A DNA stretch of 64,000 bases from contig NZ_CP040509.1 of assembly GCF_005845365.1 (NCBI RefSeq), positions 310,001-374,000 on the forward strand, written 5' to 3'. This DNA is from Rhodoluna limnophila. Its GTDB lineage: Bacteria; Actinomycetota; Actinomycetes; Actinomycetales; Microbacteriaceae. A program made the translations under genes and the position numbers. Shown here piece by piece: positions 10,324 to 16,358 of this stretch; the stretch's first letter is position 1, and each line of letters starts with the position of its first letter. The notes under the pieces were generated by a model. That model made no database searches. It was not told the DNA's origin and saw only the letters and a list, made by a program, of their open reading frames with translations.

Positions 10324-10356
10324 AAAGACCCCTCACTTCGGTGGGGGGTCTTTTTT
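10324..10356 (+). terminator. Rho-independent terminator after ilvC
   Basis: An AAGACCCCTCAC/GTGGGGGGTCTT stem closed by a TTCG tetraloop is followed by a run of six T. It ends the ilvDBNC transcript. Confidence 0.9.
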
Positions 10357-10416: not shown

Positions 10417-10434
10417 TATACCCCTAGGGGTATA
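10417..10434. promoter_or_regulatory. CsoR/CstR-type operator upstream of the Cys-rich peptide gene
   Basis: TATACCCCTAGGGGTATA is a perfect 18-bp inverted repeat, the form expected for CsoR-family operators (an AT-flanked C-run facing a G-run). A TACAAT -10 candidate overlaps its right end (10433-10438), and TTGTAT at 10409-10414 is a weak -35 with 18-bp spacing. A bound repressor would sit across the promoter. The only other such site I see is at 15305-15320, beside the CsoR-family gene; the two share the right half GGGGTATACAA. Confidence 0.75.
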
Positions 10435-10468
10435 CAATAAATACATAAACTTTTTGTAGGAGGAAAGT

Positions 10469-10588
10469 ATGTGTTCACCAGCACTTTGCAGCTCATGCAA
10501 CAAGGTCACCTGGACCGGTTGCGGAGGCCACATTGAAGAAGCTCTTGAGGGTGTTCCTCAGGATCAGCGCTGCACCTGCAACGACTAA
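10469..10588 (+). CDS. 39-residue Cys-rich peptide, putatively CsoR/CstR-controlled
   Basis: ATG 10469 follows a strong AGGAGGA SD (10458-10464). The peptide has six cysteines, C2, C7, C10, C18, C35 and C37, arranged as C-x4-C-x2-C-x7-C-G-G-H and a terminal CTC. It is too short for ordinary gene callers. From memory, similar small proteins with a CxxC, a GCG-H element and a CxC end occur in many bacteria without known function; I could not check this. Codons are those of highly expressed genes here (TCA, CCA, GCA). The upstream palindrome matches the operator of the sulfane-sulfur locus, suggesting a role in thiol, persulfide or metal handling. Confidence 0.8.
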   Translation: MCSPALCSSCNKVTWTGCGGHIEEALEGVPQDQRCTCND

Positions 10589-10607
10589 TTCACGAAATCG
10601 ATTGATT

Positions 10608-11189
10608 TCAGGGGATAAGGGTCAACTCCACCAAGGGGTTGGACCTTACTTCTTTAACAAAGTCAGTGTCTCCCCGTTCCCAAGCTAGAGCCGTTGCAAA
10701 TTGAACGTTCACCTCGCGCCCTAGAATCTCCTCGGCTTTTGCAACGGCGCGAGATGCCTCGATTCGGCTCACGTTTCCGATTAGAAGCAGGTCGACTTCT
10801 TTGGGTGTGGCAGCAGTCTGTCTTGATAACCGGGCAGCCCATACGCCAAATAGGTAGGCGTGGTCGATTCCATCTAACCCAACCAGCAGTGGCGGCAGTA
10901 CAGCGGCTGGTCCGTAGCTAAAAGCTACGATCTGGCTAACTGAGTCGAACAGCAGGTGGAGTTTATTGGCTTGGATGAGCCTTGCTCGACCAACAGTTTT
11001 TTGAACCACCAATTGCCCATCGAGCAGCCGGTCAACCTCGCGCATAGCGGTTGGCAGGCTTGTGCCAGCAAAGTCGGCCAGATGGCTAATTGCAAAAAAT
11101 TCATCTGGATTCATAAATAATTCGGCCAAAATGAGCCCTTGAACGTCACTTTTCATCAGTGGGGAGAGCTTAGCGGCAGCAACTTTCAT
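10608..11189 (-). CDS. wHTH regulator with degenerate nucleotidyltransferase-like domain
   Basis: 193 residues. An N-terminal winged helix (about residues 10-75) contains the helix-turn-helix region DFAGTSLPTAMREVDRLLDG. The C-terminal half (about 100-193) resembles MNT-type nucleotidyltransferase domains, with FGVWAAR where active enzymes have a GSxARG-like motif and EVDLLLIG in the metal-Asp region. The Ser is lost, so catalysis is doubtful. A TATACT -10 (11197-11202) lies 7 nt before the ATG, so it is probably leaderless. Inverted repeats flank that -10, suggesting autoregulation. It faces the Cys-rich peptide gene convergently, 19 bp apart. Confidence 0.65.
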   Translation of the reverse strand: MKVAAAKLSPLMKSDVQGLILAELFMNPDEFFAISHLADFAGTSLPTAMREVDRLLDGQLVVQKTVGRARLIQANKLHLLFDSVSQIVAFSYGPAAVLPPLLVGLDGIDHAYLFGVWAARLSRQTAATPKEVDLLLIGNVSRIEASRAVAKAEEILGREVNVQFATALAWERGDTDFVKEVRSNPLVELTLIP

Positions 11190-11222
11190 TTAACCAAGTA
11201 TAAGTTATGTTTAATGAAAGTT
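11181..11222. promoter_or_regulatory. Inverted-repeat operator around the regulator promoter
   Basis: AACTTTCATTTAAC (11181-11194) and GTTTAATGAAAGTT (11209-11222) form a 14-bp inverted repeat with 12 matching positions and a 14-bp spacer. The left arm contains the start codon of the regulator. The spacer holds most of its TATACT -10 box. This is a natural autoregulatory operator. Nothing comparable is seen elsewhere in the window. Confidence 0.6.
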
Positions 11223-11304
11223 AGCCTGATGATTTTGTCTGGATTTGACCCTAAACTTGTTCCTGTCGCCAAATTCGAGGCGCAACAATCACAAGGATGA
11301 TGAA

Positions 11305-12894
11305 TTGACTAAGCCAGTAGTTCTAATTGCAGAAGAGCTTTCTCCAGCGACCGTTGAAGCCCTCGGTCCAGATTTTGATGTAGTGAATGTTGACGGCACT
11401 GACCGCCCGGCACTGCTTTCCGCTTTGGCAAAGGCCGACGCAATTTTGGTTCGCTCAGCCACTCAGGTTGATGCTGAGGCTATTGCTGCTGCACCTCAGC
11501 TGAAGGTTGTTGCTCGCGCTGGTGTTGGTCTAGACAACGTAGACATCAAGGCGGCCACAGCTGCCGGTGTAATGGTTGTCAACGCACCGACTTCAAACGT
11601 TGTTTCAGCTGCTGAGTTGGCCATTGCCCAGATGCTTGGCCTGGCTCGTCACATTCCTGATGCCAACCAGTCGCTAAAGGCTGGCGAATGGAAGCGCTCA
11701 CAGTTCACCGGCGCCGAGCTTTACGAAAAGACCGTAGGTATCGTGGGCCTTGGGCGCATCGGTGGTTTGGTTGCTGCTCGTCTAGCCGGATTCGGCGTTG
11801 AGCTGATCGGTTACGACCCTTACATCACCCCGGCACGCGCCGAGCAGATGGGCGTAAAGCTTGCGACCCTAGACGAACTAATGGAGAAGTCAGACTTCAT
11901 CACCATTCACATTCCAAAGACCCCGGAAACCACCGGAATGATCTCTACCGAGCAGTTCAAGTTGGCCAAGCCAAACCTCCGCATCGTCAACTGTTCTCGC
12001 GGTGGAATCATCGATGAGGCCGCACTTTACGAGGCGCTTAGCACCAACCGTATTGCCGGTGCGGGTCTTGACGTGTTCGTCACCGAGCCTCCAAAGGAGA
12101 GCCCGCTACTTGGCCTGAAGAATATCCTGGTAACTCCTCACCTTGGAGCATCTACCGATGAGGCGCAGGAGAAGGCTGGTATTTCGGTTGCCAAGTCGGT
12201 TCGTCTGGCTTTGGCCGGCGACTTGGTGCCAGACGCTGTAAACGTTGCTGGCGGCAACATCGATGCTTCAGTGAAGCCGGGAATCAACCTAATTGAGAAG
12301 CTCGGTCAGGTGCTGTTCGGTATCTCTGGTGGAAACGTGTCAGCCATCGAGGTTGAAGTTCGCGGAGAAATCGCCGTTCACGATGTTTCTGTGCTCAAGC
12401 TAGCCGGCCTCAAGGGCTTCTTCCAGAACGCCGTTACCGAGCAGGTTTCATACGTGAACGCGCCATTGATGGCCGATGCCCGAGGCATCGACGTCAAGCT
12501 GACCGTTGATACAAACTCTGAGGAGTACCGCAACGTCACCACAATTAAGGCCACTCTGCCGGATGGCACAACTGCCTCGGTGTCGGGAACCGTAACTGGC
12601 CCTAAGTTGCACCAGAAGATTGTCAACATCAACGGTTACGACGTGGAGCTTGGCCTGGCTGAGCACCTTGTTTTGATGGTCTACGCAGACCGCCCAGGTA
12701 TCGTTGCGGTTTACGGCAAGGCCTTTGCCGATGCCAACATCAACATCGCCGCCATGCAGATTGCCCGCCAGCAGAAGGGCGGCAAGGCTCTGTCTGTTAT
12801 CACTGTTGATTCACCGGTTGCTGCCGATGTCCTTGAAGGAGTTCGCGTAGCCATCGAGGCTGACGTCATGAAGGCCATCGACATCCAGGCTTAA
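11305..12894 (+). CDS. serA: D-3-phosphoglycerate dehydrogenase (long form with ACT domain)
   Basis: 529 residues from TTG 11305, chosen because AAGGATG lies at SD distance and because TKPVVLIAEEL fits the family N-terminus. The catalytic and NAD-binding part covers about residues 1-310, with the Rossmann motif VGIVGLGRIGGLVAARLAGF and the catalytic His region TPHLGASTDEAQ. An intervening ASB domain (about 320-445) and a C-terminal ACT domain (about 455-529) give the actinobacterial long form, regulated by serine. It makes 3-phosphohydroxypyruvate for serine synthesis. A TAAACT hexamer at 11252-11257 is a candidate -10. Confidence 0.95.
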   Translation: MTKPVVLIAEELSPATVEALGPDFDVVNVDGTDRPALLSALAKADAILVRSATQVDAEAIAAAPQLKVVARAGVGLDNVDIKAATAAGVMVVNAPTSNVVSAAELAIAQMLGLARHIPDANQSLKAGEWKRSQFTGAELYEKTVGIVGLGRIGGLVAARLAGFGVELIGYDPYITPARAEQMGVKLATLDELMEKSDFITIHIPKTPETTGMISTEQFKLAKPNLRIVNCSRGGIIDEAALYEALSTNRIAGAGLDVFVTEPPKESPLLGLKNILVTPHLGASTDEAQEKAGISVAKSVRLALAGDLVPDAVNVAGGNIDASVKPGINLIEKLGQVLFGISGGNVSAIEVEVRGEIAVHDVSVLKLAGLKGFFQNAVTEQVSYVNAPLMADARGIDVKLTVDTNSEEYRNVTTIKATLPDGTTASVSGTVTGPKLHQKIVNINGYDVELGLAEHLVLMVYADRPGIVAVYGKAFADANINIAAMQIARQQKGGKALSVITVDSPVAADVLEGVRVAIEADVMKAIDIQA

Positions 12895-12913
12895 TTGCTT
12901 GGCCGAGACAAAT

Positions 12914-12948
12914 GCAAAAACCCCGAGCAATCTGCTCGGGGTTTTTGC
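12914..12948. terminator. Bidirectional terminator between serA and the CoADR gene
   Basis: A perfect 16-bp inverted repeat, GCAAAAACCCCGAGCA with a 3-nt loop, has A-tract and T-tract flanks and can end both converging transcripts. Confidence 0.92.
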
Positions 12949-12955
12949 TTGAACG

Positions 12956-14599
12956 TTAGTTTCCGGCGCGCGCTAGGGCGTCCATGCCTGCTCGCCAGGT
13001 GATGAAGCCACCGTCGAGGTTTCTGACCTTCATGCCGTGCGCCTTCAAGATCTGGGTGGCGGTGTGTCCGCGCTGGCCAACCGCACAGTGCACGATTACG
13101 TCCTCTGCTTGAATCTGGTGCAGGTGATCGCGAAGTTCATTTACATCGATGTTCACGGCACCAGGAATGCTGGAGAATTCATGCTCACCTGTGGTCCGAA
13201 CGTCGACTAGCTGCGCCCCGTTTGCCATTGCGCTGCTCAGCTCATGCCACTGGATGGTCGGGGTGTTTCCGGTGATGACGTTGTTGCCGACGTAACCGGC
13301 CTGGTTGATGGCATCTTTGGCCGAACCAAACTGCGGTGCGTATGCCAACTCGAGGTCCATCAAATCGTCCACCGTAAGGCCAGCGTAAATTGCGGTTGCA
13401 ATCACATCGATTCGCTTGTCGGCACCATCTTCGCCGGTAGCTTGGCCGCCAAGAATCTTGCCGGTTTCTGGGTCGAAGAGAACTTTTAGCGAGACTCTCT
13501 TTGAGCCAGGGTAGTAACCGGCGTGGTTGCTCGGGTGCAGGTGAATGACCTGGTGAGCGATTCCAGCGCGCTTAGCGGTCTTTTCGGTCAACCCGGTCAC
13601 GGCTGCTACAAATCCAAATGCCCCGATGATTGCGGTTGCAACTGCTGGGTGCACGCGGGTTTCAATTCCAGCGATTGCGTCGGCAACTAGGCGGCCATGG
13701 CGGTTAGCCAAGTTTGCCAGCGGAACTAGCAAGTGCTCACCGGTTAGGTGGCCATTCTTCTCAACGGCGTCTCCGGCAGCGTAGATGTGTTCGTCGCTGG
13801 TGCGCTGCTGATCATCAACCCAAAGTCCGCCGGTAGTGCCGATTTTCAAGCCTGCCTCGCGTGCCAGCGAGTTGTCTGGTGAAACACCGGCAGCTGAGAA
13901 CACCAGTGCTGCCGGAAGGCTGCGGCCATCAGCCAAGACGACTGCATCTGCGGTAACTTCTACCGGCTCGTTACCCAGTTCAAGCTTTACGCCGTTGCTG
14001 ACCAATCTGGCCTGCAATGGCTCGATAACCTCTGGGTCAAACTGGCTCAACACAGACGTGCCGCGCTGAACGATGGTGGTCTCGATGCCTAGGTGAGTCA
14101 GGTTTTCAGCCAGCTCGATGCCGATGAATCCGGCACCCAAAATGACTGCCTGCTTGCCAACGTTTTCAAGAGCGGCAGCCTTGACCTCGTCAGCGTCAAC
14201 CACGTTTCTCAGGGTCAGTGCGCGTTCAATTCCTGGTATCGCTAACTTCCGTGGTTTTGCACCGGTCGAAATAATTAGCTTGTCGTAAGAATCAGTGCCG
14301 GTCTCGCCGGTCTGTACATTCAACACCGATACAGTTTTGGCTGCCTTGTCAATCGAGGTCACCATGGTGTTGACCTTGACGTCAATCCGGAAGCGATCCC
14401 ATAGTGATTCTGGTGTTTGAAGCAACAGTAGTTCGCGCTTGGCGATGACATCGCTAACAAAGTAAGGCAGCCCGCAGTTGGCGTAACTTACGTGCTCGCC
14501 CATTTCATAAACAGTGATCGCAGCGTCTTCTCGCAATCTACGCAAACGCGTCGCTGCCGACATTCCGCCGGCCACGCCACCAATAACGATTACCTTCAT
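12956..14599 (-). CDS. CoA-disulfide reductase fused to a C-terminal rhodanese domain (CoADR-RHD)
   Basis: 547 residues. The N-terminal FAD/NAD(P)H flavoprotein (about 1-445) has GGVAGGMSAATRLRRLRED and the active-site Cys42 in YANCGLPYFVSD, as in CoADR/Npsr-type enzymes. A rhodanese domain (about 455-545) has catalytic Cys505 in the CAVGQRG loop. Fusions of this kind reduce CoA persulfides, CoA disulfides or polysulfides. It is the last gene of cstR-like/rhodanese/CoADR-RHD reading leftward from the operator at 15305, 32 bp after the rhodanese gene. The pairing with a sulfur-transfer domain and a CsoR-family regulator argues for persulfide detoxification rather than plain disulfide reduction. 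Confidence 0.9.
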   Translation of the reverse strand: MKVIVIGGVAGGMSAATRLRRLREDAAITVYEMGEHVSYANCGLPYFVSDVIAKRELLLLQTPESLWDRFRIDVKVNTMVTSIDKAAKTVSVLNVQTGETGTDSYDKLIISTGAKPRKLAIPGIERALTLRNVVDADEVKAAALENVGKQAVILGAGFIGIELAENLTHLGIETTIVQRGTSVLSQFDPEVIEPLQARLVSNGVKLELGNEPVEVTADAVVLADGRSLPAALVFSAAGVSPDNSLAREAGLKIGTTGGLWVDDQQRTSDEHIYAAGDAVEKNGHLTGEHLLVPLANLANRHGRLVADAIAGIETRVHPAVATAIIGAFGFVAAVTGLTEKTAKRAGIAHQVIHLHPSNHAGYYPGSKRVSLKVLFDPETGKILGGQATGEDGADKRIDVIATAIYAGLTVDDLMDLELAYAPQFGSAKDAINQAGYVGNNVITGNTPTIQWHELSSAMANGAQLVDVRTTGEHEFSSIPGAVNIDVNELRDHLHQIQAEDVIVHCAVGQRGHTATQILKAHGMKVRNLDGGFITWRAGMDALARAGN

Positions 14600-14631
14600 T
14601 TGATTTCCTTGGCTAAAAAATTCTGCTGTGG

Positions 14632-14967
14632 TTACTTAGACATCGATAGTCCCTGGCGGCGCCAGTTGGCGGTTCCACCAGAAACGTTGGTCACTTTGTA
14701 GCCCTTGCCGGCTAGAAAAGCTGCGGCCTGGGCCGAACGAGCGCCGCTCTGGCAAATCACCAAAATCTCGCGCTCAAGTGGGAGGTCGCTCAGGCGGTTC
14801 TGGACAGACCCAAGGGGAATGTGCTTTGCACCGGCAGCGTGACCAGATTTGTACTCGTGGCTCTCTCGAACATCGACCAGAAGTGCGCCATCAAGTTGCA
14901 TCTCCTTGGCGCGGGCTGGTGAAACGGTTTCAAACTTCTTTTTGAACAGGTTGCCGAATAGGCCCAT
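14632..14967 (-). CDS. Single-domain cytosolic rhodanese
   Basis: 111 residues from the ATG at 14965-14967, chosen for the AAGGA SD just upstream; the open frame extends further 5' without a good site. The catalytic Cys72 sits in the six-residue loop CQSGARS, and VDVRESHEYKSGHAAGA is the usual rhodanese N-terminal motif. It should move sulfane sulfur between thiols, cyanide or sulfite, with no signal peptide. A short basic, hydrophobic N-terminus (MGLFGNLFKKKFE) could touch the membrane. It lies 44 bp after the CsoR-family gene. Confidence 0.88.
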   Translation of the reverse strand: MGLFGNLFKKKFETVSPARAKEMQLDGALLVDVRESHEYKSGHAAGAKHIPLGSVQNRLSDLPLEREILVICQSGARSAQAAAFLAGKGYKVTNVSGGTANWRRQGLSMSK

Positions 14968-15011
14968 GATGATTCCTTTGCTAGTGAAAAACTTGAATAG
15001 ATTGGCGGCTT

Positions 15012-15269
15012 TTAGGCCAGTGACAGAAAAGCTTTTTCGAGGGTCTCGCGGTTGGCTTTGCCCTCGGGGTCGTTGCCACACTTGGCCATGCCGGTTGAGA
15101 TGATGGTGAATCCAGCACGGGTAAGTGCCGTGCTGGCAGCCGACAGCTGGGTCAGTAGTTCGGTGCAGTCGCGGCCTTCGTCGAGCATCTTCACGATGCC
15201 ACCGATTTGCCCCTGAACACGGACAAGGCGGTCGCGTGCGGCTTTGAGTTCAGTTGGATCGATTTGCAT
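15012..15269 (-). CDS. CsoR-family repressor, CstR-like (persulfide sensor) rather than copper sensor
   Basis: 85 residues, the all-helical CsoR/RcnR (DUF156) fold. The two family cysteines are present: C35 in EGRDCTEL and C64 in GMAKC. Copper-sensing CsoR has a His four residues before the second Cys; here that place is G60. Loss of that ligand with both Cys kept is the pattern of CstR, which senses persulfides through Cys-Sx-Cys cross-links. The gene heads an operon of two sulfur-transfer genes and is divergent from a third, with a CsoR-type operator between them. An AAGGAG SD precedes the ATG. The sensor chemistry is inferred. Confidence 0.85.
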   Translation of the reverse strand: MQIDPTELKAARDRLVRVQGQIGGIVKMLDEGRDCTELLTQLSAASTALTRAGFTIISTGMAKCGNDPEGKANRETLEKAFLSLA

Positions 15270-15301
15270 GATTCTCCTTGGCTTGACCTAAATCTAGTTC
15301 T

Positions 15302-15323
15302 AGCATACCCTAGGGGGTATACA
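15302..15323. promoter_or_regulatory. Shared CsoR/CstR-type operator and divergent promoters
   Basis: ATACCCTAGGGGGTAT (15305-15320) is a near-perfect inverted repeat centred on TA. It overlaps a minus-strand -10 candidate TATGCT (15302-15307) for the regulator operon and a plus-strand TATACA (15318-15323) for the lipoprotein rhodanese. One bound repressor could shut both directions. It resembles the site at 10417-10434. Confidence 0.75.
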
Positions 15324-15357
15324 AATCGCCAGTAACTTTTCTACTACGGAGATCAAA

Positions 15358-15732
15358 ATGAAGAAAAACTTGTTCAAGGTTCTCGCTACCCTTGTAGTAG
15401 CGCTTTTCGCTACTTTCTCACTATCCGCTTGCAGCAGCCAAGGACCAATTGACATGTCATCAGTTTCAGCAGTAATCGACGTTCGTACCCCAGCAGAGAC
15501 CGCAGAGGGTTATCTAGAGGGAGCCCTACTTATTGACTGGCAGGGCCCAGATTTCGGAACCGAAATCGAGAAGCTAGACAAGGCTGCAAACTACGTAATC
15601 TACTGCCGCTCGGGCAACCGCGCTGGCCAGGCAATCGAAGCCATGAAGGGCCTTGGCTTCACCGGAACCCTAACCAATGCGGGCGGTCTAGACGACGCCG
15701 CTTCGGTCACCGGCCTTCCAATCGTTTTCTAA
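15358..15732 (+). CDS. Secreted lipoprotein rhodanese
   Basis: 124 residues. A basic n-region and hydrophobic core end in the lipobox LSAC with lipid-modified Cys25, so the protein is anchored outside the membrane. A compact rhodanese domain follows, with AVIDVRTPAETAEGYLEGA (about 38-56) and catalytic Cys83 in CRSGNRAGQA. It has an ACGGAG SD. Codons are CTA, TCA and CCA rich, as in ilvC, suggesting high expression. Divergent from the CsoR-family operon across a shared operator, it probably handles extracytoplasmic sulfane sulfur. Confidence 0.9.
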   Translation: MKKNLFKVLATLVVALFATFSLSACSSQGPIDMSSVSAVIDVRTPAETAEGYLEGALLIDWQGPDFGTEIEKLDKAANYVIYCRSGNRAGQAIEAMKGLGFTGTLTNAGGLDDAASVTGLPIVF

Positions 15733-15743
15733 GTAGCAACACA

Positions 15744-16358
15744 ATGGCGATGAATTCTGAGTACTGGGATGCAAAATTCGACGTACCGGAATACATCTAC
15801 ACCAAAGAAGTAAACCGCTTTGTAAAGCAGTTTTGTGAGCACCTCCCTGCCGGCAAGATGATTGATCTTGCCGGTGGTGAGGGCCGCAACTCAGTCTGGT
15901 TCGCCGAACGCGGCTGGCAGGCCGAGAACATCGATTTTTCAAAAAAAGCACTCACCAAAGCCTTGGCCTTTGCCGAGGAACGCGGTGTGGCTGAAAAGTA
16001 TTTTGCTCACATTGCTGATGCAACCGGTTTTGAATCGGTGCTCACCCCAGTAGACCTTGGGGTGATTGCCTACCTTCAGGTCAATAATCAAGACCTCTTC
16101 GACGCAATCGACACCCTGGTAGACAACATCAAACCCGGTGGTCACCTGTTTGGCGTCTGGCACGCCCGTGAGAATCTGGTCGAGGGTTTTGGGGGACCGC
16201 AGGACCCAAGTGTCTTGCCAACTGCCAGTGAAGTTCGCGAATTTCTAGAGACACTGCCCGTTGAGATTGAAACTCTCGAAAACTTTGAGGGTCAAATTCA
16301 GACTCGTGATGGACTCAAGCCATCGACCACACTTGTTCTTATGGCCAAGCGCCTCTAG
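15744..16358 (+). CDS. Class I SAM-dependent methyltransferase (TehB-like)
   Basis: 204 residues; an ATG at 15750 is an equal alternative start. SAM-binding motif I is MIDLAGGEGRNSVWFAERGW (about residues 39-58), and motif II-like acidic residues follow (NIDFSKKAL). The best match by eye is the TehB/thiol-methyltransferase-like group. It starts 11 bp after the lipoprotein rhodanese, so the two are probably co-transcribed from the CsoR/CstR-type promoter. Methylation of sulfide or thiol products would fit that setting, but this is inference; tellurite or other small substrates are possible. Confidence 0.8.
   Translation: MAMNSEYWDAKFDVPEYIYTKEVNRFVKQFCEHLPAGKMIDLAGGEGRNSVWFAERGWQAENIDFSKKALTKALAFAEERGVAEKYFAHIADATGFESVLTPVDLGVIAYLQVNNQDLFDAIDTLVDNIKPGGHLFGVWHARENLVEGFGGPQDPSVLPTASEVREFLETLPVEIETLENFEGQIQTRDGLKPSTTLVLMAKRL

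Follow-up and report, generated by a model that had tools for sequence, protein, structure and literature searches.

The window analysed here is a 64,000-nucleotide stretch of DNA (positions 310001–374000) from the single-contig genome of Rhodoluna limnophila, which comprises 1,398,704 bases; positions are given in window coordinates unless stated otherwise. It encodes a 39-residue cysteine-rich peptide (10469–10588, + strand), recognized from its open reading frame (ORF) and from comparison with homologues as the short form of a small-protein family, and a regulator of the CsoR family. An operator is positioned in front of the peptide gene, and a second one adjoins the regulator gene. It is likely, with a probability that we place at about 0.8, that the two operators belong to a CstR-type regulon which responds to sulfane sulfur (persulfide) and includes the peptide.

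The peptide gene is preceded by ilvC (ilvC, serA, and leuB are what we take the respective genes of the window to be). An intrinsic terminator at 10324–10353 (+ strand), consisting of a 13-pair stem and a T run, divides the upstream operon from the peptide gene. The first operator is a perfect palindrome at 10417–10434 that contains ATACC-N6-GGTAT. The ATG of the peptide ORF is located 34 base pairs (bp) after the palindrome and is preceded by the ribosome-binding site AGGAGG (10458–10463, + strand). Beyond the peptide gene lie a gene for a 193-residue protein (10608–11189, − strand), which has no Pfam or NCBIfam match at E 0.001, then serA, and an arm of three genes on the − strand. These encode a protein resembling coenzyme A (CoA)-disulfide and CoA-persulfide reductases with a C-terminal rhodanese domain (12956–14599), a cytosolic single-domain rhodanese (14632–14967), and the regulator (15012–15269). 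The second operator, ATACCCTAGGGGGTAT at 15305–15320, occupies the divergent promoter region. To its right, on the + strand, are the genes of a lipoprotein rhodanese (15358–15732) and of a class I S-adenosylmethionine-dependent methyltransferase (15744–16358), followed by leuB. With the ATG at 14967 chosen for the small rhodanese, the gaps between the genes are 44 bp from regulator to rhodanese, 32 bp from rhodanese to reductase, and 11 bp from lipoprotein rhodanese to methyltransferase; therefore, each arm beside the second operator reads as one operon.

Operators, regulator, and enzymes

A sequence-only reading of the window had described the palindrome before the peptide gene, a sister site between the CsoR-family gene on the − strand and the lipoprotein rhodanese gene on the + strand, and no other such site in the 64 kb. 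The DNA sequence bears out both sites, and a mismatch scan agrees with the absence of others: the first operator matches itself alone in the window at up to three mismatches, and none of 100 shuffles gave a match. The two operators, TATACCCCTAGGGGTATA and ATACCCTAGGGGGTATA, have ATACCC-N4-GGGTAT in common. The genome-wide operator scan that the same reading had proposed was run, and it extends the absence of further exact sites to the whole genome. Both ATACCCN4GGGTAT and ATACCN6GGTAT, which were used in place of an initial search pattern with wrong spacing and no matches (TACCCCNNNGGGGTA), occur exactly at two places in the 1.40 Mb genome, and these are the two operators. If one mismatch is allowed, ATACCCN4GGGTAT is found at three further places and ATACCN6GGTAT at 22, compared with about half that number (11 at up to one mismatch) for a reversed control. 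Twenty-one of the 22 places are inside open frames that are no shorter than 170 codons. At the remaining place, C1:1190750–1190765 outside the window (CTACCCAGCCGGGTAT), the only frame is one of 63 codons, and this place represents a possible weak third site.

The two exact sites correspond to a divergent promoter and a further target, as is expected for the operators of CstR-type sensors. A chance origin of the palindrome was considered and rejected, because the genome census and the conservation of the site in front of peptide homologues rule against it. The sequence TACAAT at 10433–10438 overlaps the right end of the first operator and, as judged by eye, could be a −10 element; no sigma-70 promoter passed in a promoter scan.

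The regulator belongs to PF02583 (64.8 bits against a cut-off of 22.8) and is the only protein of this family found in the genome. Its cysteines are C35 and C64 only, and Gly60 occupies the position of the copper-ligand His. It thus has the two cysteines without His that characterize CstR and not the Cys-His-Cys metal site of copper-sensing CsoR and RicR, and by this pattern its sequence is that of a CstR-type regulator. The nearest solved structures by sequence, 7mq1–7mq3, were deposited as CsoR; we take them to be CstR-type proteins. The spacing of C35 and C64 equals that of Cys37 and Cys66, with which ScCsoR of Streptomyces coelicolor senses sulfane sulfur, and ATACCn6GGTAT is the published ScCsoR site, according to the available part of that report (PMC7533328). 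The cysteines of CstR from Enterococcus faecalis are numbered C31 and C62 in the accessible portion of its description (PMC9405070); therefore, the distance between the sensing cysteines differs among CstR-type sensors. Read from the sequence, gene content and operator position are consistent with control of rhodanese and persulfide-removing genes by the window regulator.

The assignment of the reductase is derived from Pfam, NCBIfam, the nearest solved structure, and its cysteines. The nearest solved relative is the CoA-persulfide reductase 8a56 (E 6.4e-144), and the protein has the CoA-disulfide reductase body and C-terminal rhodanese domain of such enzymes with one cysteine in each, C42 and C505, as its only cysteines. 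Its scores are below the NCBIfam equivalog cut-offs shown (TIGR03385, 439.7 against 578.8 bits); by sequence it is of the right superfamily for a CoA-disulfide reductase, and the equivalog is not assigned. The cytosolic rhodanese (C72; start MGLFGNLFKKK, with the start codon chosen by hand) and the lipoprotein rhodanese are members of PF00581. The latter contains the lipobox LSAC with Cys25, and Cys83 is taken as catalytic. The methyltransferase was identified by Pfam and by structure–sequence comparison, in which Slr1183 is its nearest solved relative. Pfam and the lipobox thus agree with the gene identities proposed earlier, including the fused, cytosolic, and surface-anchored rhodanese-type proteins. 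By contrast, it is not unusual for a cytosolic and a surface rhodanese to occur together in the vicinity of one CstR-type gene: a lipobox-like signal, defined by a loose pattern, is present in 24 of 30 short rhodanese ORFs near peptide homologues, and 13 of these 24 adjoin a peptide gene directly. Two CstR-controlled rhodaneses are also reported in the available part of the E. faecalis study (PMC9405070).

The peptide family and its operators

The window peptide contains six cysteines (C2, C7, C10, C18, C35, and C37) and H21, is 87% identical to the peptide of Rhodoluna sp. Ww21, and has no Pfam or NCBIfam match at E 0.001. Across 64 distinct homologues obtained by similarity searches alone, C2, C7, C10, G17, C18, G19, and C35 are invariant, whereas H21 is present in 63 and W15 in 62. 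An earlier conservation count was partly circular, as the proteins had to fit C-x4-C-x2-C, and loci L039–L118 were collected by the pattern TWxGCG[QE]H[VI]; the count of 64 sequences is free of that selection.

Among genomes of the family, 21 of 60 encode the peptide, and for the phylum the figure is 27 of 246; both counts include the genome of the window. It is also encoded in 3 of 99 genomes in the phylum of an Acidobacteria metagenome-assembled genome (MAG; G316) that was chosen because of its match. At least 585 stretches in the species-genome collection encode a relative, and 80 of them were kept as named loci. Plasmid records matched the short query in 58 cases and the long query in 69, the latter comprising 32 mobilizable, 27 non-mobilizable, and 10 conjugative plasmids. 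No annotated feature was found beneath 38 of 40 listed plasmid hits, in a gene table that is incomplete.

Removal of duplicates and one unparsed hit reduced 177 hits to 168 distinct peptide genes, many of which come from related genomes and are not independent. The short form, with up to 45 residues, accounts for 69 of the 168 proteins and ends in CxC in 62 of these. The 99 longer proteins represent the long form, and 70 of them carry a hydrophobic tail of the FFARLFGR kind. The aromatic basic tail of the long form (GFFARLFGR-like) resembles the N-terminus of the cytosolic rhodanese of the window, MGLFGNLFKKK. More than one peptide gene is present in the stretch at 27 of the 80 named loci; at L033, L036, and L038 a long and a short form are in tandem, with the long form first.

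An AlphaFold2 model of the peptide, calculated from a 62-sequence alignment, has a predicted local distance difference test (pLDDT) value of 81 and a predicted template modelling (pTM) score of 0.48 and is uninformative on function. It has no Foldseek match at E 0.001 and no VIA-align match at Z 2 among known structures. Sequence matches in the PDB, the best of which is a repeat protein accompanied by low-score matches, were set aside. No metallothionein model is among the library matches of the peptide, and TusA (PF01206) is absent from the seven families to which at least one of 62 members had a hit (E up to 0.1); the likeness of the peptide to TusA would be one of functional analogy only. 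No description of the family was found in the family libraries or in the open-licence paper listings searched; for the latter, such absence is weak evidence of novelty.

The operator is linked to the peptide gene far beyond the window. An exact ATACCN6GGTAT is located within 150 bp upstream of 67 of the 168 distinct peptide genes, and the distances from site to start codon range from 22 to 114 bases. Four control patterns gave no exact and no one-mismatch sites upstream of the same genes; at two mismatches, TATCCCN4GGGATA gave 50 and two others gave one each. In 73 sites selected by ATACC and GGTAT alone, conservation extends to the unconstrained inner positions, with C in 100% and 84% and G in 83% and 98%. 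The 588 kb around the 80 named loci contain 70 exact sites, compared with none for five control patterns, and 57 of the loci have an exact site within 4 kb. Merged counts within 4 kb of the same loci are 29 for CsoR-family genes, 30 for rhodanese, 22 for reductase, 8 for persulfide dioxygenase (PDO), and 5 for TauE. The genome has a PF02583 gene for 42 of 43 operator-plus loci and for 9 of 23 operator-less ones (66 loci; Fisher p 1.3e-7), where PF02583 genes of any type are counted, two of the loci come from a single genome, and 14 of the 80 loci, all operator-plus, are left out. Some links may be missed because contigs are short or MAGs incomplete.

The neighbours of peptide genes include CstR-type regulators, CoA-disulfide-reductase-like proteins, rhodanese, a PDO-like protein with metallo-β-lactamase (MBL) fold, TauE, DUF302, and DsrE. 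Five annotated plasmid neighbourhoods (L119–L123) contain varying sets of rhodanese, MBL-fold hydrolase, TauE/SafE, DUF302, DsrE, and thioredoxin genes, and four of the five have a gene for a metal-sensitive regulator. Except for CsoR-family and ArsR-family regulators labelled 'metal-sensitive', the annotation of these five neighbourhoods names no copper or zinc protein. The association of the peptide with sulfane-sulfur genes recurs across several actinobacterial families, on chromosomes and plasmids. The sequence-only reading had placed the rhodaneses, the reductase, possibly the methyltransferase, and the peptide under one CstR-type regulator, and this is supported by the operator census, the cysteine pattern, the conserved operators, the co-occurrence, and the neighbourhoods.

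Proposed circuit and function of the peptide

By analogy with CstR and ScCsoR, the reduced repressor would bind the operators at 15305 and 10417, and persulfide or polysulfide would link its C35 and C64 and release it from the DNA. The genes released would be those of the CoA-persulfide-reductase-like enzyme, the cytosolic rhodanese, the lipoprotein rhodanese, and the methyltransferase. The 39-residue peptide, judging from the position of its gene, would be induced together with the enzymes from its own unit. It may then buffer sulfane sulfur or move it from rhodaneses to reductase or back, in place of TusA or DsrE; this carrier or buffer function is the least certain step of the mechanism.

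The regulon resembles published circuits. The S. coelicolor circuit (PMC7533328) also combines, in an actinobacterium, a CsoR-like repressor with two sensing cysteines 29 positions apart, the ATACCn6GGTAT site, and a rhodanese that the repressor controls. It differs in having a persulfide dioxygenase and TauE, and the available part of the report names no small Cys-rich protein; the window adds a CoA-persulfide-reductase-like enzyme, a lipoprotein rhodanese, a methyltransferase, and the peptide. The cst-like operon of E. faecalis (CstR, CoAPR, RhdA, and RhdB; PMC9405070) likewise has a CstR repressor and two rhodaneses, and its CoAPR has cysteines C42 and C508, compared with C42 and C505 in the window. 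By contrast, its CstR cysteines are two residues further apart, no peptide is mentioned in the accessible portion of that study, and in the window two arms diverge from one operator while the peptide has an operator of its own. In the YrkD cluster of Bacillus licheniformis, as far as the available part of the source describes it (PMC9918477), a CstR-like repressor controls sulfane-sulfur enzymes together with small sulfur carriers. These are YrkE, a DsrE homologue, and YrkI, a TusA homologue, whereas the window genome has the peptide and neither family. CstR regulons are known; a strongly conserved protein of about 40–60 residues behind their operator in many Actinomycetota would be a new element.

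A CsoR system responding to copper is the alternative for the circuit as a whole. In mycobacteria, the CsoR-family repressor RicR senses copper by Cys-His-Cys and acts before the very small Cys-rich protein MymT. The window has a repressor of the same family before a tiny Cys-rich gene, and RicR is the top NCBIfam match of this PF02583 regulator, although far below threshold (41.6 against 175 bits). However, the window regulator has Gly in place of the copper-ligand His, and its gene adjoins those of persulfide enzymes. Each of the 58 distinct regulators in the neighbourhood of peptide genes shows C-x28-C and carries G, A, S, N, or T where the His would be (57 assigned by script and L133 by eye), in a set biased by its collection with CstR-type queries. 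The 49 regulator loci among the PF02583 matches listed for the 66 loci comprise 23 of His type, 20 of C-x-C type, and 6 unparsed; an exact ATACC site is present in the stretch of about 3 kb for 10 of the 20 C-x-C regulators but for none of the 23 His-type or the 6 unparsed ones. Nor does the operator occur at copper exporter or chaperone genes, as it would for copper-sensing CsoR or RicR: no exact or one-mismatch ATACCN6GGTAT was found at the genome's two HMA genes (L124 and L125), and L125 contains one two-mismatch match. A regulator sensing Cu(I) with the peptide as a copper metallothionein is therefore rejected as highly improbable, because of the missing His, the operator-less HMA genes, and the neighbouring gene content. 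Outside the window, at C1:95325–95736, a 78-codon HMA frame directly precedes a 718-codon HMA-containing frame. The two are probably CopZ and CopA, the longer frame being taken as a copper ATPase, and because the genome has one PF02583 gene and no exact site there, copper control of the pair is probably exerted by another regulator.

For the peptide within a persulfide regulon, we tentatively propose that it is a small thiol protein which accepts, buffers, or carries sulfane sulfur, because another CstR-like regulon contains TusA and DsrE carriers, both of which are missing from this genome, and because the most conserved residues of the peptide are Cys, Gly, His, and Trp. (TusA and DsrE families were not found in the window's genome by a Pfam search in which controls matched in 11 and 8 of 14 genomes.) The peptide may instead bind zinc or copper, as a metallothionein-like or metal-delivery protein that guards or reloads metal sites at high sulfide or persulfide, which is the main alternative, somewhat doubtful but plausible. 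The conserved CxxC and CxxH, the terminal CxC of most short forms, and a weak similarity to HMA (seen for 8 of 62 members with E no higher than 0.1, the best 0.0099) are in its favour. However, the window peptide reaches 13.6 bits for HMA against a cut-off of 24.8, with no metal-protein family at E 0.001; the genome's HMA genes lack the exact operator; and it is sulfur genes that recur in the five plasmid neighbourhoods, whereas no metal proteins other than regulators are named there. A more specific version of the carrier is speculative and on balance unlikely. In it, a new family replacing TusA and DsrE in many Actinomycetota would use GCGxH (C18 and H21), which directly precedes a predicted short helix, to shuttle persulfide from the cytosolic rhodanese to the reductase, and the tailed long form would work at the membrane close to the lipoprotein rhodanese. 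It is more improbable still that the peptide is a general small protein outside sulfur chemistry, such as a zinc-finger adaptor, and that CstR control is a lineage-specific addition. Operator-less homologues in small genomes and MAGs where PF02583 was not found, and those from the Acidobacteria-centred search, would fit such a protein, but an unrelated role does not predict the recurrent association with sulfane-sulfur genes in several actinobacterial families.

Several observations weigh against a persulfide regulon with the peptide as its carrier. Neither operator nor regulon genes are present within 4 kb at 21 of the 80 named loci, and three homologues from the Acidobacteria-centred search (L208, L209, and L210) have no operator and no CstR-type gene in about 3 kb; therefore, the core role of the peptide need not depend on CstR. 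Unannotated ORFs read by eye at 12 of the 21 unlinked loci showed no common context beyond that of three Leucobacter loci, which have one upstream neighbour in common. Nine operator-less loci are in genomes that do have a PF02583 gene; the sole regulator found is of His type in two or more of these genomes (L163 for L114 and L191 for L117), whereas others are C-x-C. Half of the C-x-C regulators above (10 of 20) have no exact site in their stretch. The pairs C7–C10, C18–H21, and C35–C37 of the peptide would fit zinc or copper binding as well, and the carrier role is argued from gene context and the lack of TusA and DsrE. The Corynebacterium control is likewise without TusA, so the absence of TusA may be common in Actinobacteria. 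The existence of homologues without operator or regulator suggests that the peptide predates its CstR control or extends beyond it.

Because polysulfide is a known inducer and the repressor is of a known type, the proposed persulfide regulon makes a small-protein family approachable. The family is strongly conserved on plasmids and chromosomes, has no Pfam or NCBIfam model, and is mostly unannotated in the plasmid table searched. It would also provide a handle on sulfane-sulfur movement in bacteria without TusA or DsrE.

Gene order in related genomes

The arrangement of the window is retained in two Aquiluna records, L055 and L113. Both contain ilvC (81–82% identity), the peptide gene with its own site, serA (73–77%), the reductase, and the regulator, followed beyond the regulator by the divergent site, the lipoprotein rhodanese, the methyltransferase, and leuB; each has two operators. 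In neither record could the gene at 10608 be found within the syntenic stretch, and no small cytosolic rhodanese was seen in L055. In L013, L039–L043, and L059, the peptide genes come after the lipoprotein rhodanese behind a single divergent site. Methyltransferase genes also come after the lipoprotein rhodanese gene in L055 and L113, and on a Microbacterium plasmid a long-form peptide gene has its end overlapped by one. The rhodanese arm of L113 (9463–10131, − strand) contains three rhodanese pieces, each in a different frame, which gives the appearance of a single gene that was split or mis-assembled, and is accompanied by an extra rhodanese gene.

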